From Pseudomonadota bacterium (GTDB lineage Bacteria; Pseudomonadota; Gammaproteobacteria; Burkholderiales; Rhodocyclaceae), in assembly GCA_021849505.1 (NCBI GenBank), contig JAJZSW010000006.1, positions 1-57,176 of the forward strand: 57,176 bases of DNA. The letters run 5' to 3'. Below, piece by piece: positions 1,760 to 57,176 of the stretch. Below the pieces are notes generated by a model, which saw only the letters and a program-made list of their open reading frames with translations, searched no databases and was not told the DNA's origin. The translations under genes and the position numbers were made by a program. Every line of letters begins with the position of its first letter. Position 1 is the stretch's first letter.

Positions 1760-1954
1760 ATGAACCGCACACGGCTGACCCTGATCGACGTACTGCAACC
1801 CCGCAGGTTTCAGGGCACTCCGGAGCGCTCCCGGGTCACGCGCACCATCGTCCAACCTGAAATCGATGCCTTCGAGGAGCAGGAAGCACGCAGCATGGCG
1901 CAAAAGTCGGCGCTGGCAGGACGGCATGCCACCGAGACGGCGCTCCAACTCTAA
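1760..1954 (+). CDS. Small hypothetical protein carrying a copy of the dispersed repeat
   Basis: A 64-residue ORF, MNRTRLTLIDVLQPRRF..., not recognised. The ATG at 1760 has AAAGGA eight bases upstream, which supports translation; the longer open frame from 1724 has no better site. It has no membrane segment or signal peptide; the middle is charged (IDAFEEQEARSMAQ). The C-terminal third contains KSALAGRHA, encoded by one copy of the dispersed repeat seen again at 40-45 kb. It ends three bases before the converging thioesterase gene. It may be a real small protein or a remnant. Confidence 0.45.
   Translation: MNRTRLTLIDVLQPRRFQGTPERSRVTRTIVQPEIDAFEEQEARSMAQKSALAGRHATETALQL
1900..1926 (-). repeat. 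Dispersed repeat, copy A (reverse orientation)
   Basis: On the minus strand this reads TGCCGTCCTGCCAGCGCC followed by GACTTTTGC, one mismatch from the common core. It lies in the small ORF at 1760-1954, where it encodes KSALAGR. It is the only copy outside 40-45 kb. Confidence 0.75.
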
Positions 1955-18625: not shown

Positions 18626-18642
18626 TGAAAAAAGGCAATACC

Positions 18643-19833
<1,191 letters not shown>

Positions 19834-35011: not shown

Positions 35012-35030
35012 AGCATGGTGAAACGATTTC

Positions 35031-36221
<1,191 letters not shown>

Positions 36222-38059: not shown

Positions 38060-41000
38060 ATGCGCGACGTGCGTGACGTATCGCTCGACGACAAATACAC
38101 GCAGGAATCCGGCCGCGTCTATCTGACCGGCATGCAGGCGCTGACGCTCCTGCCACTGCTGCAACGGCGGCGCGACCTGGCGGCCGGACTGAATACGGCC
38201 GGCTACATCTCCGGCTATCGCGGCTCCCCGCTCGGCGCCTATGACCTCGCCCTCTGGCAGGCCAGGAAGCACCTCGATACGCACCACGTCGTGTTCCAGC
38301 CCGGCGTCAATGAGGAACTCGCCGCCACCGCCCTCTGGGGCACGCAGCAGATCGGCCTGGCGCCCGGCGCGAAGTACGACGGCGTGTTCGGCATCTGGTA
38401 CGGCAAGGGCCCGGGCGTCGACCGCAGCGGCGACGTTTTCAAGCACGCCAACGGCGCGGGCAGCGCACCGTTCGGCGGCGTGATCGCCATCGCCGGCGAC
38501 GACCACGCGGCGCGCTCATCCACTGTCGCCCACCAGTCGGAACAGGCCTTCATCGCCGCGGCGATGCCGATCCTCGCCCCGTCCGGCGTGCAGGATTATC
38601 TCGACCTCGGCCTGCACGGCTGGGCGCTGAGCCGCTATTCAGGCTGCTGGGTCGGCTTCAAGGCCGTCGCCGACACCGTCGAATCCTCCGCGGCCGTCGA
38701 TATCGATCCGGATCGGGTGACCATCGTCATTCCCTCCGACTTCGCTTTGCCGCAAGGTGACCCATGGGGCCTCAACATCCGCTGGCCGGACGATCGCCTC
38801 GCACTAGAAGCACGCCTGCTCGAAACCAAACTCGATGCCGCCCGCGCCTACTGCCGTGCGAACAACCTGAATCACACGGTGATCGACTCACCCAAGGCCC
38901 GATTGGGCATCGTCGCCGCGGGCAAGAGCTATCTCGACGTGCGCCAGGCGCTCGAACTGCTCGGCATCGACGACCGCCTCGCCAGTGAACTCGGCCTGCG
39001 CGTCCTCAAGGTCGCCATGGTCTGGCCGCTCGAAGCCGAGGGCATGCGCCGCTTCGCGGCCGGCCTCGACACGATTCTCGTCGTCGAGGAAAAGCGCGCG
39101 CTGATCGAGACCCAGCTCAAGGAGGTGCTGTATCACGCCCCGGCGCGTCCGCGCATCCTCGGCAAGCACGACGAGGCCGGCCAGCCCCTGCTGCCGCCCT
39201 GCGGCGAACTCACGCCGACGCAGATCGCCCAAATTCTGGCAAGCCACATCGGCGCTCACCCGCGCGTCAGCGCACGGCTCGGGCACATCACGGCCGCAAC
39301 ACAGCGCCATGCGCCGACGATTGCCGGCAAGCGCATGCCGTGGTTCTGCCCGGGCTGCCCGCACAACACCTCGACGCGGGTGCCGGAAGGCTCGCGCGCG
39401 CTCGCCGGCATCGGCTGCCATTTCATGGTGACGTGGATGAATCGCGACACCGACACCTTCGCGCAGATGGGAGGCGAAGGTGCGGCCTGGATCGGCCAGT
39501 CGCCCTTCACCGAGACGCCGCATGTCTTTGTCAACATCGGCGACGGCACCTACTTCCACTCGGGCATCCTCGCCATCCGCGCCGCCGTCGCGGCGAACGT
39601 CAACATCACCTACAAGATCCTCTACAACGACGCGGTGGCGATGACCGGCGGCCAGCCGGTCGACGGCGGCCTGACCGTGCCGCAGATCGCGCACCAGTTG
39701 CATGCCGAAGGCGTCGGCCACGTCGTCGTGGTCACCGACGGCAGCCCGCGCGCCTGGCGCAAGAGCGAGCTGCCGCACGGCGTGCCGATCAGGCACCGCG
39801 ACGAGTTCGACACGATCCAGAAGGAGATGCGCGAGTGTCCCGGCGTGTCGGCGCTGATCTACGACCAGACCTGCGCGGCCGAGAAGCGCCGCCGCAGGAA
39901 ACGTGGAAAACTGGCCGATCCGCCGCTGCGCGTCTTCATCAACGCCGACGTCTGCGAAGGCTGCGGCGACTGCTCCGTGCAATCCAACTGCCTCGCCGTC
40001 GTGCCGGTCGATACGACGCTCGGCACGAAGCGCGCCATCGACCAGTCGGCCTGCAACAAGGATTTCTCCTGCCTCAACGGCTTCTGCCCGAGTTTCGTAA
40101 CGATCGAAGGCGGCAGTTTGCGCAAGGGCAGCGCGCTGGACCTTGAGCCTGCCGTCCCGCCAGAGCCGACTTTTGTAACCACGGAGAAACCCTTCAACAT
40201 CCTCGTCACCGGCGTCGGCGGCACGGGCATCGTCACGCTCGGCGCGCTGCTCGGCATGGCGGCGCACCTCGACGGCAAGGGCGTCAGCGTGCTCGACATG
40301 ACCGGCATCGCGCAGAAGGGCGGCACGGTGTTCTCGCACGTGCGCATCTGCGACGACCCGGCCGCGCTCCACGCGCCGCGCATCGCCACGGGCGAGGCCG
40401 ATGCGATCCTCGGCGGCGACGCCATCGTCAGCGCCGCGCCGGAAGCCTTGTCGAAAATGCACGCGGGACGTACGCGCGCCGCCATCAATGCCGCCGCGAC
40501 GCCGACCGCGGAGTTCACTGCGAATCCCGACTGGCGCTTCCCGCTCGACGGCATCCGTGCCGCGCTCGCCGCCACGATCGGCGCCGCCGCGTTCGATGCC
40601 ATCGACGCGACGGCGCTGGCGACGCGGCTGATGGGCAACGCGATCTACGCGAACATCCTCCTGCTCGGCTTCGCCTGGCAGCGCGGGTTGATTCCGGTCA
40701 GCGAAGCGGCGCTGACGCGCGCGATCGAGCTCAACGGCACGGCGGTGGACATGAACCTGCGCGCCTTCCGCTGGGGCCGCCGCGCCGCGCATGATCCGGC
40801 GAGCGTCGCGGCCTTCCTGCCGCAAGCTGCCGTCCCGCCAGCGCCGACTTTTGCAACACTGCTCGCCGACCGCGTACAGCGGCTCACCGATTACCAGGAT
40901 GCCGCGCTGGCCGGACGCTACCGCGCGCGGGCCGAGCAAATCCGCCAGCACCCGGCGGCCGACGATGCGCTCGCCGCCGTCGTGGCGCGCAATTACTTCA

Positions 41001-41467
41001 AGCTGCTCGCCGCCAAGGATGAATACGAAGTCGCCCGGCTCTATGCCGAGACGGACTTCCTCGACCGCGTGGCCGCGCAGTTCGAGGGTGACTACTCACT
41101 CTGCTTTCACCTCGCCCCGCCGCTGCTCGCGCGGCCCGACCCGACGACGGGCCGAATGCCCAAGCGGCGCTACGGCCCGTGGATGATGACCGCCTTCCGC
41201 TGGCTGGCCAAAGCCAGAAAGCTGCGCGGCACGCGCTGGGACATCTTCGCGCGCAGCCCGGAACGCAGGCTTGCCCAGCAGCTGCTCGCGGAATACGAGG
41301 ACGACCTCGATCTGATCCTCGCCAGGCTCGATACCGGCAACCTGGCTGCCGCCCAAGAGCTGGCTGGCTGGCCGGATCTGGTGCGCGGCTACGGCCACGT
41401 CCGCGCAAAGTCGGCGCTGGCGGGACGGCAACTGCGGGAACGCGCGCGTGCGAAACTCGCGGACTGA
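38060..41467 (+). CDS. Fused indolepyruvate-type 2-oxoacid:ferredoxin oxidoreductase
   Basis: 1135 residues. Order: pyruvate:ferredoxin-like and thiamine-diphosphate domains (about 20-600; TPP motif GDGTYFHSG near residue 494), a [4Fe-4S] region with C632, C635, C638, C644 and C665, C671, C676, the gamma/KorC domain (about 708-890, ILVTGVGGTGIVTLGALLG), and a C-terminal DUF6537-type domain. The single-chain form is known in betaproteobacteria for oxidising aryl- or branched-chain 2-oxo acids to acyl-CoA with reduction of ferredoxin. Three copies of the dispersed repeat are translated in it: residues 697-705 and 923-931, on either side of the gamma domain, and 1117-1123 near the end. Confidence 0.9.
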   Translation: MRDVRDVSLDDKYTQESGRVYLTGMQALTLLPLLQRRRDLAAGLNTAGYISGYRGSPLGAYDLALWQARKHLDTHHVVFQPGVNEELAATALWGTQQIGLAPGAKYDGVFGIWYGKGPGVDRSGDVFKHANGAGSAPFGGVIAIAGDDHAARSSTVAHQSEQAFIAAAMPILAPSGVQDYLDLGLHGWALSRYSGCWVGFKAVADTVESSAAVDIDPDRVTIVIPSDFALPQGDPWGLNIRWPDDRLALEARLLETKLDAARAYCRANNLNHTVIDSPKARLGIVAAGKSYLDVRQALELLGIDDRLASELGLRVLKVAMVWPLEAEGMRRFAAGLDTILVVEEKRALIETQLKEVLYHAPARPRILGKHDEAGQPLLPPCGELTPTQIAQILASHIGAHPRVSARLGHITAATQRHAPTIAGKRMPWFCPGCPHNTSTRVPEGSRALAGIGCHFMVTWMNRDTDTFAQMGGEGAAWIGQSPFTETPHVFVNIGDGTYFHSGILAIRAAVAANVNITYKILYNDAVAMTGGQPVDGGLTVPQIAHQLHAEGVGHVVVVTDGSPRAWRKSELPHGVPIRHRDEFDTIQKEMRECPGVSALIYDQTCAAEKRRRRKRGKLADPPLRVFINADVCEGCGDCSVQSNCLAVVPVDTTLGTKRAIDQSACNKDFSCLNGFCPSFVTIEGGSLRKGSALDLEPAVPPEPTFVTTEKPFNILVTGVGGTGIVTLGALLGMAAHLDGKGVSVLDMTGIAQKGGTVFSHVRICDDPAALHAPRIATGEADAILGGDAIVSAAPEALSKMHAGRTRAAINAAATPTAEFTANPDWRFPLDGIRAALAATIGAAAFDAIDATALATRLMGNAIYANILLLGFAWQRGLIPVSEAALTRAIELNGTAVDMNLRAFRWGRRAAHDPASVAAFLPQAAVPPAPTFATLLADRVQRLTDYQDAALAGRYRARAEQIRQHPAADDALAAVVARNYFKLLAAKDEYEVARLYAETDFLDRVAAQFEGDYSLCFHLAPPLLARPDPTTGRMPKRRYGPWMMTAFRWLAKARKLRGTRWDIFARSPERRLAQQLLAEYEDDLDLILARLDTGNLAAAQELAGWPDLVRGYGHVRAKSALAGRQLRERARAKLAD
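40150..40177 (+). repeat. Dispersed repeat, copy B
   Basis: Core GTCCCGCCAGAGCCGAC (one change from consensus) followed by TTTTGTA. It is translated as AVPPEPTFV in the linker before the gamma domain of the oxidoreductase. Confidence 0.8.
40828..40857 (+). repeat. Dispersed repeat, copy C
   Basis: Consensus core GTCCCGCCAGCGCCGAC followed by TTTTGCAAC. It is translated as AVPPAPTFA in the linker after the gamma domain, in the same frame as copy B. Confidence 0.8.
41405..41430 (-). repeat. Dispersed repeat, copy D (reverse orientation)
   Basis: Consensus core in reverse; on the plus strand AAAGTCGGCGCTGGCGGGAC. It is translated as KSALAGRQ close to the C-terminus of the oxidoreductase, in the same frame as copy A. 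Confidence 0.8.
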
Positions 41468-43714: not shown

Positions 43715-44149
43715 ATGACGAACGAAACCCAGAATGACCCGATGGAATTCATCAAGAACATGTGGGGCAACATGGGTTTCTCGCTGCCCGGCATGGTCAC
43801 ACCGACGGTCGATACCGACGAACTCGGCAAGCGCATCGCCGACCTGAAGGCCGTCGAGGGCTGGCTCAAGTCCAACCTCAGCCTGCTGCAGATGACCATC
43901 CAGGGCCTCGAAATGCAGCGCGCCACGCTGCTGGCCTTCCAGCAGATGAGCCAGGCGACCCAGGAAGCCGCCGCCGAAGCGGAAAACGCCCCCAACCCCT
44001 TCCTCAACCCCGCGGTGTGGCAGATGCCCTGGGATCTGATGAAGAGTGCCGTCCCGCCAGCGCCGACTTCTTCAGAACCGGCGGCCGAAACACCTGCCGC
44101 CAAGCCCAAGCGTTCACCCCGCAAGAAAAGCGAGCAAAGTAAACCATAA
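43715..44149 (+). CDS. phaM: PhaM-type polyhydroxyalkanoate granule regulator
   Basis: 144 residues from MTNETQNDPMEFIKNMWGNM, preceded by GAGG. The central part, TDELGKRIADLKAVEGWLKS followed by LLQMTIQGLEMQRATL, is the PhaM signature; PhaM activates the PHB synthase and tethers granules to the nucleoid in Ralstonia. The C-terminal tail PAAKPKRSPRKKSEQSK is basic, as in the DNA-binding tail. Copy E of the dispersed repeat (SAVPPAPTS) is inserted just before the tail. The last 36 bases overlap the convergent AEC gene. Confidence 0.75.
   Translation: MTNETQNDPMEFIKNMWGNMGFSLPGMVTPTVDTDELGKRIADLKAVEGWLKSNLSLLQMTIQGLEMQRATLLAFQQMSQATQEAAAEAENAPNPFLNPAVWQMPWDLMKSAVPPAPTSSEPAAETPAAKPKRSPRKKSEQSKP
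44047..44073 (+). repeat. Dispersed repeat, copy E
   Basis: Consensus core GTCCCGCCAGCGCCGAC followed by TTCTTC. It is translated as AVPPAPTSS in PhaM, in the same frame as copies B and C. Confidence 0.8.
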
Positions 44150-45026: not shown

Positions 45027-46199
45027 TCAGATCACGCCCTGGACGCGCAGTGCCTCGATGTCGGCCTCGCCATAGCCCGCGGCGCGCAATAGTGCCGTCC
45101 CGTCAGCGCTGACTTTCGGGGCAGGGCTGCGCACCGCGAATTCCAGCCCGCTCATCTTCAGCGGCGGTGCGAACTGCTGCAGTCCGTCGATCTCCGGCAG
45201 CATGCCGCGCGCCCTGAGTTGCGGGTTTTCCATCGCCTCCTCGAAGCTCAGCACCGGTGTGACGCCGCAGTCGACACTCTCGAACTGCGCGGCCCAATGC
45301 GCGAGCGGCTGGCTGGCGAACAGCGTTTCAAGCTCGCGCCGGGTGCGTGCGCCGTCGGCATCGCGTGCGAGGCCGAAGGGCTTGAGGTCGGGACGCCCGA
45401 TCGCATCGCAGAACACCTGCCAGAACTTCGGCTCGAGCGCTCCCACCGCCATGTAGCGGCCGTCCTGCGTGCGGTAGAGCCGATAGCCCGGCAGGCCGCC
45501 GTTGAGGTCGTCCATGCCGCGCGGCAGCGTCTGCCCGCGCGCCAGCACCGAGAGCAGGCCGGTGTAGGCATGGGCGAAGGTCGCGTCGGTCATGGCCACA
45601 TCGACGTAGCGTCCCGCGCCGGTCGCCCGGGCGCCGATCACCGCGGCGAGGATGCCCATCACCGCCGTCAGCGCGCCGCCGAGCAGGTCGCCGATCTGCA
45701 GGTTGGGAATCGCCGGGGCGCCGTCCTCCGTCCCGATCTGGTCGAGTACTCCAGAAGTCGCGATGTAGTTGAGGTCGTGGCCCGCGCGGTCGCGCCAGGG
45801 GCCGTCCTGCCCGTAGCCGGTGATCGCGCAATAGACGATGCGCGGATTGATTTCCCGCACTGCCGTATAGCCAACGCCGAGTTTGTCGACCACGCCGGGA
45901 CGAAAACTCTCGACGATCACGTCGGCGTCGCGCGCGAGGCGCAGGAAGACCTCCACACCCGCCTGCTGCTTGAGGTCGAGCCGCATGCCGCGCTTGTTGC
46001 GATTGACGACGCGGAAGAAGAAGCTGTCCTCGCCCGGCGCCGCGCCGAGACCCATCGTGCGCGCGTAGTCGCCCGCGCCAGTATCTTCGATCTTGATCAC
46101 CTCGGCGCCAAGGTCGGCGAGATGCAGCGTGCAGACCGGCCCCGGCAGCAGGCGCGTGAGGTCGAGGATTTTCAGCCCGGCAAGCGGGCCGTCAGTCAT
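45027..46199 (-). CDS. Family III CoA-transferase, probably alpha-methylacyl-CoA racemase-like
   Basis: 390 residues, DGPLAGLKILDLTRLLPGP at the start (CaiB/BaiF fold). GHDLNYIATSGVL (His141) and NLQIGDLLGGAL (Asp171) are spaced 30 residues apart, the same spacing as the catalytic His126/Asp156 pair of alpha-methylacyl-CoA racemases, so racemase activity on 2-methyl-branched acyl-CoA is more likely than CoA transfer. Such enzymes serve sterol side-chain or branched fatty acid breakdown. It overlaps the PaaK-like gene by eight bases. Copy F of the repeat lies near the C-terminus. Confidence 0.8.
   Translation of the reverse strand: MTDGPLAGLKILDLTRLLPGPVCTLHLADLGAEVIKIEDTGAGDYARTMGLGAAPGEDSFFFRVVNRNKRGMRLDLKQQAGVEVFLRLARDADVIVESFRPGVVDKLGVGYTAVREINPRIVYCAITGYGQDGPWRDRAGHDLNYIATSGVLDQIGTEDGAPAIPNLQIGDLLGGALTAVMGILAAVIGARATGAGRYVDVAMTDATFAHAYTGLLSVLARGQTLPRGMDDLNGGLPGYRLYRTQDGRYMAVGALEPKFWQVFCDAIGRPDLKPFGLARDADGARTRRELETLFASQPLAHWAAQFESVDCGVTPVLSFEEAMENPQLRARGMLPEIDGLQQFAPPLKMSGLEFAVRSPAPKVSADGTALLRAAGYGEADIEALRVQGVI
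45093..45119 (+). repeat. Dispersed repeat, copy F (perfect palindromic core)
   Basis: GTCCCGTCAGCGCTGAC followed by TTTCGG. The two changes from consensus turn the 12-base centre into a perfect palindrome GTCAGCGCTGAC. It is translated from the minus strand as KVSADGTA in the racemase-like protein, in a frame different from the other copies. Confidence 0.75.
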
Positions 46200-54613: not shown

Positions 54614-55309
54614 GTGCCTGACAATTCGCCTCCCTCCCCAACCCTCGCCGCAGCCATCGCGCAGTCGCGCTGGGCGCAGCGCCTGAAGCCCGAAGAGCTT
54701 GAGCGGGCACGCCAGGGCATGGCCGAGCGCCGCGTCGAGGCCGGCGGCTTCATCTGCCGCCAGGGCGAGCAGCCCACGTGCTGGATCGGCATCATAGACG
54801 GCCTGGCGAAGATGTCCTCCGACTGGGTGACCGGCAAGACCGCGTCCTACGCCGGCATCCCGGCCGGCGGCTGGTTCGGCGAGGGTTCGCTGCTGAAGAC
54901 CGAGCCGCGCCGCTACGACGTGGTCGCGCTGCGCGCCACACGCGTCGCCTGCATGAAGCGCGAAACCTTCCGCTGGCTGCTCGACCACAGCTTTGCCTTC
55001 AACCACGCGATCATCGAGCAGATCAACGAGCGCCTCGGCCAGTTCATCGGCCTGCTCGAATCCCAGCGCCTGCACGATACCGACACGCGGGTCGCGCGCA
55101 GCATCTCGATCATGTTCAACCCGGTGCTCTACCCGGGCCAGAACGCCACGCTCGCCATCTCGCAGGAGGAGATCGGGCATCTGGCGGGCGTCTCGCGCCA
55201 GCGCGTGAATCGCTCGCTGAAGCTGCTCGAGGATGCCGGTTTCCTGCGCATCGAGTACGGCGGCATCACCATCCTCGATCTCGACGGGCTGCGGCGCTTC
55301 GGTGGCTAG
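54614..55309 (+). CDS. Crp/Fnr-family transcription regulator
   Basis: 231 residues with an N-terminal cyclic-nucleotide-binding-type beta barrel (about 20-135, GGFICRQGEQPTCWIGIIDG) and a C-terminal winged helix (ISQEEIGHLAGVSRQRVNRSL). The four-cysteine iron-sulphur pattern of FNR is absent, so the signal is not evident. GTG at 54614 is chosen because the frame upstream is non-coding and a -10 box lies six bases away. It is divergent from the acyl-CoA/transport operon, a natural candidate target, and overlaps rlhA by eight bases. Confidence 0.82.
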   Translation: MPDNSPPSPTLAAAIAQSRWAQRLKPEELERARQGMAERRVEAGGFICRQGEQPTCWIGIIDGLAKMSSDWVTGKTASYAGIPAGGWFGEGSLLKTEPRRYDVVALRATRVACMKRETFRWLLDHSFAFNHAIIEQINERLGQFIGLLESQRLHDTDTRVARSISIMFNPVLYPGQNATLAISQEEIGHLAGVSRQRVNRSLKLLEDAGFLRIEYGGITILDLDGLRRFGG

Positions 55310-57176
55310 ACGCATCGAACTGCTCGCCCCCGCCCGCACCGCCGAAATCGGCCGGCAGGCTATCCTGCACGGCGCCGACGCGGTGTATATCGGCGGGCCG
55401 GCCTTCGGCGCGCGCGAGAAGGCCGGCAATTCCATCACCGCCATCGCGGCGCTGGTCGAATTCGCGCACCGCTTCCACGCGCGCATCTACGTCGCGCTCA
55501 ACACCATCCTGACCGACGCGGAACTCGATCCGGCGCGCCGACTCGCACTCGATTGCTGGAACGCCGGCGTCGATGCGCTGATCGTGCAGGACATGGGCCT
55601 GCTCGAACTCGACCTGCCGCCCATCGACCTGCACGCCTCGACGCAATGCGACATCCGCACGCCGGCCAAGGCGCGCTTCCTCGCCGACGCCGGCTTCTCG
55701 CAACTCGTGCTCGCGCGCGAACTCTCCCTCGGGGAAATCGCCGCCGTGCGCGCCGCGCTGCCCGCCGACGTGCTTGTCGAGCACTTCGTCCATGGCGCGC
55801 TGTGCGTCGCCTTTTCGGGCCAGTGCTACATCAGCCACGCGCAGACCGGCCGCAGCGCCAACCGCGGCGACTGTTCGCAGGCCTGCCGCCTGCCCTACAC
55901 GCTGCAGGACAAGGAAGGCCGCGTCGTCGCCTTCGAGAAGCATCTGTTGTCGGTCAAGGACAACGACCAGAGCGCCAACCTGCTGCCGCTGATCAGGGCC
56001 GGCGTGCAGAGCTTCAAGATCGAGGGCCGCTACAAGGACGCCGGCTACGTCAAGAACATCACCGGCCATTACCGGCTGCTGCTCGACGCGCTCTTCGAGC
56101 AGCACCCGGAGCTTGCGCCGGCTTCGAGCGGCAAGGTCAGGCTCGGTTTCGTTCCTCATCCGGACAAGACCTTCCATCGCGGCAGCACCGACTACTTCAC
56201 CCACGGCAGGAGCAGCAACCCCGCGCACATCACTGCCTTCGACACGCCCGCCTTCGTCGGCCTGCCGATCGGCAAGGTCGCCCGGGTGGACAAGGCCTCG
56301 TTCGACATCGCCACGCAGGAGGCCTTGGCGAATGGCGACGGTCTGAGCTGGATGCACAAGCGCACGGTCGTCGGCACGCAGGCGAACCAGGTCGAACGGC
56401 TGGACGGCGGCCACTGGCGCATCTGGCCCAACGATCCGGTCGACCAGCTCCCCGGACTCAAGCCCGGCGCCACCATCAACCGCAACCGCGACCAGGCCTG
56501 GGAACAGGCGCTGACGAAGGACTCCGCCGCGCGGCGCATCGCCGTCGATGCGCTGCTCGCCGCAACCGCGGACGGCTTCGCCCTGACGCTCGCCGACAGC
56601 GACGGCATCAGTGCCAGCGCGATACTGACGATTGAAAAACAGGCCGCGAAGCAGCCTGAAAGCGCTGTGGACGCACTGAAAGCCCAGGTGTGCCGTCTCG
56701 GCAGCACCGACTTTGCATTGCGCGAATTCAAAGTCGAGTGGGAGCAGCCGTGGTTCATACCCAACTCCGCCGCGAACCAGTTGCGCCGCGATGCCATCGC
56801 CGCGCTCGCAGCCGCGCGACGTGCGGCCTACATTCGCCCGCTGCGCCGGACTGCCACCGAGCCGCCCGCGCCCTACCCCGAAACCGCGCTGAGCTACCTC
56901 GCCAACGTCCACAACGCCGCCGCGCGCCGCTTCTACGCAAAGCACGGCGTCCAGCTGATCGCGGCCGCCTACGAGGCGCACGAGGCAACCGGCGAGGTCG
57001 CGCTGATGATCACCAAGCATTGCCTACGCCACGCCTTCAACCTCTGCCCGCACCAGGCCAAGGGCGTCACGGGCGTGCAGGGGCAGGTGCGCGCGGAACC
57101 GATGTCGCTGATCAACGGCAACGAGCGCCTGACGCTGACCTTCGACTGCCGGGCCTGCGAAATGCACGTCGTCGGG
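55302..57176 (+). CDS. rlhA: U32 family protein RlhA, 23S rRNA 5-hydroxycytidine synthase (3' end cut by window)
   Basis: 625 codons are open to the window edge without a stop; E. coli RlhA has 653 residues, so nearly all is present. ARRIELLAPARTAEIGRQAI at the start, the U32 signature GQCYISHAQTGRSANRGDCS and C-terminal cysteines (KHCLRHAFNLC, FDCRACEMHVV) that could hold an iron-sulphur cluster. RlhA hydroxylates C2501 of 23S rRNA using prephenate. The start is GTG at 55302, inside the end of the Crp-type gene. A peptidase function, the old family name, is less likely. Confidence 0.85.
   Translation, partial: MARRIELLAPARTAEIGRQAILHGADAVYIGGPAFGAREKAGNSITAIAALVEFAHRFHARIYVALNTILTDAELDPARRLALDCWNAGVDALIVQDMGLLELDLPPIDLHASTQCDIRTPAKARFLADAGFSQLVLARELSLGEIAAVRAALPADVLVEHFVHGALCVAFSGQCYISHAQTGRSANRGDCSQACRLPYTLQDKEGRVVAFEKHLLSVKDNDQSANLLPLIRAGVQSFKIEGRYKDAGYVKNITGHYRLLLDALFEQHPELAPASSGKVRLGFVPHPDKTFHRGSTDYFTHGRSSNPAHITAFDTPAFVGLPIGKVARVDKASFDIATQEALANGDGLSWMHKRTVVGTQANQVERLDGGHWRIWPNDPVDQLPGLKPGATINRNRDQAWEQALTKDSAARRIAVDALLAATADGFALTLADSDGISASAILTIEKQAAKQPESAVDALKAQVCRLGSTDFALREFKVEWEQPWFIPNSAANQLRRDAIAALAAARRAAYIRPLRRTATEPPAPYPETALSYLANVHNAAARRFYAKHGVQLIAAAYEAHEATGEVALMITKHCLRHAFNLCPHQAKGVTGVQGQVRAEPMSLINGNERLTLTFDCRACEMHVVG

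Follow-up and report, generated by a model that had tools for sequence, protein, structure and literature searches.

The 57,176-nucleotide stretch of a Rhodocyclaceae genome that was analysed here (contig JAJZSW010000006.1; hereafter the window, at its full length) carries a gene for a single-chain oxidoreductase in which one 24-nucleotide word, TGCCGTCCCGCCAGCGCCGACTTT, occurs three times (copies B, C and D). The word is not particular to this enzyme, i.e. it recurs hundreds of times in the genome, and we consider it most likely to be a motif of the kind that marks DNA for uptake. The gene and its three copies are:

38060-41467, forward strand: single-chain indolepyruvate ferredoxin oxidoreductase family protein, 1135 amino acids (NCBIfam NF009588, 1688 bits; Pfam domains)
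40150-40173, forward strand: copy B, 24-mer match with one mismatch, in the linker preceding the POR domain
40828-40851, forward strand: copy C, exact 24-mer match, in the linker between the POR domain and DUF6537
41407-41430, reverse strand: copy D, exact 24-mer match, near the C-terminus (equal-length segment in 30 of 30 orthologues)

The protein matches NF009588 over its whole length (model positions 12-1174 of 1196) and contains the Pfam domains TPP_enzyme_C (residues 451-537), POR, which is gamma/KorC-type (720-907), and DUF6537 (933-1120). Copies B and C share a frame and encode AVPPEPTF and AVPPAPTF (residues 697-705 and 923-931), and copy D, on the opposite strand, reads KSALAGRQ (residues 1116-1123). 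That the three copies are real, that they lie at these residues and that B and C are read in one frame had been stated in the original prediction and is borne out: the window holds seven matches to the 24-mer at up to three mismatches, against none in 100 shuffles. The same prediction took the copies as markers of domain borders, which applies to B (ending some 15 residues upstream of the POR domain) and C (between POR and DUF6537), but for D, which overlaps the end of DUF6537, at best loosely.

Insertion or substitution in coding sequence

It had further been proposed that the word was inserted into the enzyme, and that it is either kept where a flexible linker is harmless or useful or helped to fuse the subunits. 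We aligned 30 orthologous loci, of which 20 are free of the element (G006 and 19 from outside the genera g1, g2 and g9); these rows show at least 7 mismatches to the word at every site, like background segments. In the case of D, all 30 rows have 32 residues in the segment (query residues 1100-1131). The word itself is found there with 0-3 mismatches in five of the nine same-genus rows; the other rows differ from it by 8 or more. In the case of B, the segment counts 34 residues in the window protein and 35-45 in the element-free rows, which are longer in 20 of 20 cases, and in the case of C it counts 42 against 40-53, with 19 element-free rows longer and only G006 shorter. The other same-genus rows vary in both directions (B 34-63, C 40-69). 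The element-free homologues thus do not lack the segment, as they should if an insertion-type mobile element were at work; they are equally long or longer at the sites, apart from C in G006, and this is the outcome that the original prediction had named as refuting insertion.

The segments themselves are poorly conserved: ranked by conservation among all 8-residue windows in 19 element-free homologues, sites B, C and D fall at percentiles 8.3, 0.1 and 2.3, in agreement with the idea that copies are kept where change does no harm. A role in subunit fusion, on the other hand, is ruled out. Each of the 30 loci, with the element or without it, is one open frame (1137-1250 amino acids), and the window protein matches the single-chain family over its whole length. 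Since the homologues without the word are the same fused enzyme, the fusion was not brought about by the element.

The same question was asked of other genes, as the word is found within many recognisable ones in the G000 and G017 samples. Eight were hand-picked from 87 intragenic copies and compared with solved structures, with two alignments each; named after the matched molecules these are TrpB, PdxJ, cysteine desulfurase, an isopropylmalate isomerase-type large subunit, GlmS, IlvD, RlmE and Fmt. In 8 of these 8 housekeeping proteins the motif residues align without a gap, although PdxJ has nearby gaps (7 residues in all) whose end lies about 4-8 residues upstream of the motif, and IlvD has an 8-residue gap just past it in one alignment, the other stopping there. 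For TrpB (30 loci, 36 genomes searched) the alignment runs without a gap from 20 residues upstream of the site to 26 residues downstream. Outside the genus the commonest peptide at this site is QMPELAGRQ (11 of 24 rows, with varying codons), whereas G000, G010, G012 and G004 show QMSALAGR(Q/H), with the motif or a close variant of it as the coding sequence; from this difference the word was apparently written here by substitution, at the cost of two amino-acid changes, if the direction of change is read correctly. At the GlmS site (30 loci, 35 genomes) the word is recognisable by eye in g1, g2, g9, g62 and g88, degenerate in g69 and absent to the eye from the other rows, and the alignment has four extra columns next to it, occupied by g2 and G032 alone except for one residue of G004. 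Both sites are variable as well (9.6th percentile for TrpB and 15.8th for GlmS, from 8 and 11 element-free rows).

A test at the level of flank distances gave a less uniform picture. It yielded pairs for 28 of 127 focal sites, intergenic sites included; the net indel was zero in 29 of the 69 focal pairs, compared with 125 of 130 controls. The other 40 focal pairs comprise 30 from oxidoreductase sites B and C, where the element-free linkers vary in length too, and 10 whose indels span -9 to +203; the net -24 of an empty site was seen in 0 of the 69. Because this test mixes variable linkers with intergenic sites, we relied on the protein-level alignments. These place the coding copies in sequence that homologues match without a change of length, which argues that, as far as alignments can tell, the coding copies tested are written into existing genes by single-letter substitution and not inserted. 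For these copies, insertion at domain borders is ruled out by the oxidoreductase segment lengths, TrpB and the eight structure-compared proteins together.

Two further observations were made at such sites. A second, longer repeat with core TTGGCCCCCC.CGCTCG...CTCGCTGCCC...GGGGGGCGTCGGCT.GGGACGGC is placed exactly at 24-mer sites; it forms in-frame insertions in the oxidoreductase of 29 residues at site B in G005 (L057) and of 27 residues at site C in G004 (L034), and is also present as a two-unit tandem in the genome of the window (L217:6400-6620). At L227:8624 the motif has the opposite orientation in a relative (L024) at the same site with no net change in length, which suggests an independent gain at a permissive spot.

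Abundance and placement of the word

The 2.75-Mb genome to which the window belongs contains 512 copies at up to three mismatches (239 on the forward and 273 on the reverse strand), and the reversed control gave 0. A count over 61 genomes gives 311-728 copies in 18 of the 19 that are assigned to its genus (this one included); outside the genus G019 has 528 and G026 has 751, and the remaining genomes have 0-5. In a 449-kb sample of G000 the numbers of copies at 0 to 5 mismatches are 13, 28, 19, 9, 11 and 10, with no match of the reversed control up to 5. The borders of the word are sharp, i.e. the flanks hold at most 0.17 bit past one base on each side (G000, G017), and its two half-sites are spaced by 15 in 50 of 51 pairs (G000 sample), 32 of 41 (G017) and 199 of 208 (named loci), the remainder including tandem arrays. 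A second form with wider spacing is limited to scattered cases. Split motifs with 24-27 extra nucleotides in the middle (GCCGTCCCGCCAGT...CACGCCGACTTTT) were seen in L083, L037, a G026 stretch and one further named locus. The G017 stretches (L231-L250) also hold arrays that repeat every 54 nucleotides and are built from the motif together with its inverted half. Folding of the motif is no better than that of shuffled sequence (structure z-scores +0.83, +0.37 and -0.33).

With respect to genes, as placed by heuristic gene calls and with 3-5 mismatches allowed depending on the genome, 53-82% of the copies are intragenic (G000 40/69, G017 47/65, G026 30/42, G019 23/28, G028 8/15), and in these five genomes the density of copies in noncoding DNA is 2.3-5.5 times the coding density. 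Two of the six reading frames are nearly unused, with 3 of 148 intragenic copies (LPSRQRR 3, SRRWRDG 0). The two orientations balance in the G017 genome as a whole (229/229); in 20 stretches of it, 20 forward copies stand against 45 reverse, divided as 15/38 at positive GC skew and 5/7 elsewhere (Fisher p=0.49). Exact copies of a 23-mer were also seen in 40 viral contig stretches (L171-L210), being either host flanks or phages of these bacteria.

The remaining copies in the window are:

1903-1926, reverse strand: one mismatch, outside called genes (heuristic gene calls)
44047-44070, forward strand: 24-mer match with one mismatch, in called gene 43715-44149, peptide again AVPPAPT
45093-45116, forward strand: 24-mer match with two mismatches, antisense within called gene 45027-46199 (reverse)
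56691-56714, forward strand: weak 24-mer match with three mismatches, in called gene 55302-57176 (forward)

Apart from these, the window contains a perfect 300-nucleotide duplication (18642-18941 and 35030-35329, 16.4 kb apart), which we presume may be part of duplicated tuf genes.

Dialects and spread among genera

When k-mers were counted without reference to the motif, related words emerged from the samples of g2, g9, g11, g90, g88, g62 and g69; none emerged from those of g70 and g47. The consensus words, from position models except that of g69, which was taken from the listing of a generic-pattern scan, are:

g1: TGCCGTCcCGCCAGCGCCGACTTT
g2: CGCCGTGtCGCCAGCGCCGACTtT
g9: CGCCGTCcCGCCAGCaCCGACTTTT
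g62: CGCCGTctCGCCAGCGCCGACTTTT
g88: CGCCGT.TcGCCAGCGCCGACTTTt
g11: CGCCGTGCcGc.GgGACTGACTTTT
g90: CGGCGTGcCGCCACGGCTGACTTTc
g69: AGCGTCGACTTT

The words of g62 and g88 are near that of g1, and those of g9, g11, g90 and g69 are clearly different. The position models of g69 and g70 were built on no more than 6 and 7 sites. A dialect of g47 is not claimed, as the model from G064 strayed to 18.8 bits and gave 4 matches in the control. The G006 and G036 samples showed no motif, the top k-mers of G036 being another repeat.

In a scan of 150 genomes of the family with a generic pattern, 23 genomes from 10 of 68 genera had at least 50 matches and the other 127 had 0-23, counts in which match-free genomes may hold words of another form that the pattern misses; the reversed control gave at most 10 matches in any genome. 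An exact 25-mer search of named genomes points to the Rhodocyclaceae as the family, with 69 of 80 so labelled among the matches listed.

Comparison with known short repeats

The DNA uptake sequences (DUS) of the Neisseriaceae are described as directional, very numerous in and between genes, tolerated at permissive locations and differentiated into lineage dialects in passages of PMC3630211 and PMC2397512, the former of which gives a 5'-CTG-3' core for all dialects. The word described here is likewise directional, very abundant, present in and between genes, permissively located and divided into dialects by lineage. Unlike a neisserial DUS it belongs to a different host family and has no constant CTG core, this being found in the g11 and g90 words and absent from the forward words of g1, g2 and g9. 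The g1 word starts with TGCCGTC, as does AT-DUS (ATGCCGTCTGAA) after its first base, which may be chance.

For the uptake signal sequences (USS) of the Pasteurellaceae, PMC1939737 suggests, in the parts that deal with homologous genes, a gradual origin by point mutation, and reports noncoding copies above expectation; a paper on uptake sequences argues that recombination too, and not point mutation alone, creates new copies. The word resembles USS in its overrepresentation in genes, its noncoding excess and its point-mutation origin. It differs from their 9-nucleotide core in being an unrelated, GC-rich 24-nucleotide sequence that ends in a short T tract; the flanks of USS are T-rich.

Repetitive extragenic palindromes (REP) and the bacterial interspersed mosaic elements (BIME) composed of them, with their REP-associated tyrosine transposases (RAYT), are short, abundant and dispersed extragenic repeats that form hairpins and have a cognate Y1_Tnp protein. 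The word shares with these its shortness, abundance and dispersal, and a few arrays with inverted halves. It was rejected as a REP/RAYT element: it has no stable hairpin, is intragenic in more than half of its copies, and stands gapless in homologues, and in 11 of the 18 motif-rich genomes searched Y1_Tnp is missing. Rickettsia palindromic elements (RPE), finally, are insertions of more than 100 nucleotides, in frame within proteins; the word has the in-frame presence in common with them and differs as a 24-nucleotide word made by substitution and not by insertion.

A probable uptake signal and its alternatives

The copy number above chance, both orientations without polarity of replication among the G017 matches listed, a point-mutation origin (in the tested coding copies) and permissive places with a noncoding excess are together what is reported for uptake sequences. 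As the word is substitution-made, directional, permissively placed and rich in noncoding DNA, with dialects, we regard it as probably an uptake-signal motif of the DUS/USS type, spread by point mutation together with biased uptake and recombination. Under such a mechanism, a receptor of the type IV pilus or competence machinery would prefer DNA that bears the word, fragments with better copies would be taken up and recombined more often, and copies would build up by molecular drive, perhaps with selection for the uptake of DNA of the own kind in addition. The three copies in the oxidoreductase gene would then be three easy places for writing the word, for which no role in the protein is needed. 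Of the competence genes searched (ComEC and the ComP family), ComEC is present in 36 of 36 genomes and a ComP_DUS-family pilin scores above the cut-off in 53 of 61, motif-rich or not; in the genome of the window the ComP-like pilin gene lies at L223:19150-19548 on the reverse strand.

Several points weigh against this reading. The competence proteins occur in motif-free genomes as well and therefore do not discriminate, and two motif-rich, incomplete genomes (G013 and G015) gave no ComP-family match. G006 is assigned to the same genus and has 0 copies; either the word was lost or the genome is misplaced. The word, at 24 nucleotides, has roughly double the length of a DUS (10-12 nucleotides), the strands are uneven in the G017 stretches, and the flank-distance test, taken alone, speaks for indels. 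In a tree of 26 genomes based on two proteins, five nodes have a support below 0.3 and the motif-bearing genera are not established as one clade. Finally, a gapless origin would fit any selected binding site equally well.

This last point leads to the main rival, namely that the word is a site for an intracellular chromosome protein (a nucleoid organiser, recombination hotspot or segregation factor) selected at each position. Its sharp 24-nucleotide footprint, an origin by substitution, as for selected sites, and the uneven strands just mentioned are in its favour. The even spread of forward copies over the first 1.4 Mb of G017 (Kolmogorov-Smirnov p=0.71, among the matches listed) can be counted on either side. 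Words of the Chi type or of the FtsK-orienting polar sequence type show polarity by chromosome half, which the matches listed for G017 indicate to be absent here (100 of 180 forward copies in 51% of the chromosome, p=0.23). Furthermore, the word holds about 33 bits where 13.4 would mark 512 sites, far beyond need even though the former figure is inflated, the sites having been chosen by a score threshold, which also tells against the uptake-signal reading; the word appears to alter amino acids of TrpB, and its dialects differ among genera. We therefore hold a chromosome-protein site to be unlikely, while taking it more seriously than any of the following.

A short mobile element (a miniature inverted-repeat transposable element, REP/BIME or RPE-like) inserted in frame wherever this is tolerated, as at domain borders, would account for many near-identical copies that are denser between genes, for the G017 arrays with inverted halves, for the real insertions of 27 and 29 residues at these sites in G004 and G005, made by a different, longer repeat, and for the net indels in 40 of 69 flank-test pairs, 30 of them at B and C. 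Against it stand the equal length of segment D in all orthologues, B and C segments that are not shorter without the element (except C in G006), the lack of any flank-test pair at -24, and the gapless motif in TrpB and the eight structure-compared proteins, as well as a fold no better than that of shuffles. Y1_Tnp, the REP-type transposase family, is found in 7 of the 18 motif-rich genomes searched (one match each; G000 and G017 are among those without) and in 4 of 10 motif-free ones. For the coding copies tested a mobile element is refuted, and overall we give it very little credence.

Still less is to be said for paired transcription terminators or another RNA element: in all of the five samples but G028, noncoding copies are enriched between genes that converge (in G017, 6 of 18 noncoding copies where 9% of the noncoding bases are such), but there are 0 inverted pairs within 80 nucleotides among 71 noncoding copies, the structure z-scores are unremarkable and over half of the copies are intragenic in each of the five samples. 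That favoured Pro-rich AVPPAPTF linkers converged at the protein level, with the DNA repeat as a consequence, would explain the common peptide of B and C and is refuted already, since D and other copies use other frames and peptides (KSALAGR, KVGAGGTA, CRPASADF) or noncoding DNA, i.e. what is shared is the DNA word.

Implications

What is new here is the word and not the enzyme, and this word is most likely a longer form of uptake sequence that Rhodocyclaceae carry. In the relevant passages and abstracts of PMC3630211, PMC2397512, PMC1939737, PMC7811141 and PMC12616744, uptake sequences are discussed for Neisseriaceae and Pasteurellaceae only, and none is named for Rhodocyclaceae among the titles and abstracts listed from the open-licence PubMed Central literature. 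Judged from sequence, we lean, with rather less assurance than for the uptake-signal assignment itself, towards the view that members of the Rhodocyclaceae have a sequence-specific DNA uptake of their own, with an unusually long, 24-nucleotide word and genus dialects that would bias recombination to the own kind. One practical consequence is that a peptide repeated in these genomes, AVPPAPTF or KVGAGGTA for example, is to be read as a trace of the DNA word and not as a sign of protein function. If the reading is true, a further family would join the Neisseriaceae and Pasteurellaceae, in what look like environmental Betaproteobacteria, and would offer an independent comparison for the origin of uptake specificity, for its receptor and for its part as a barrier to recombination.

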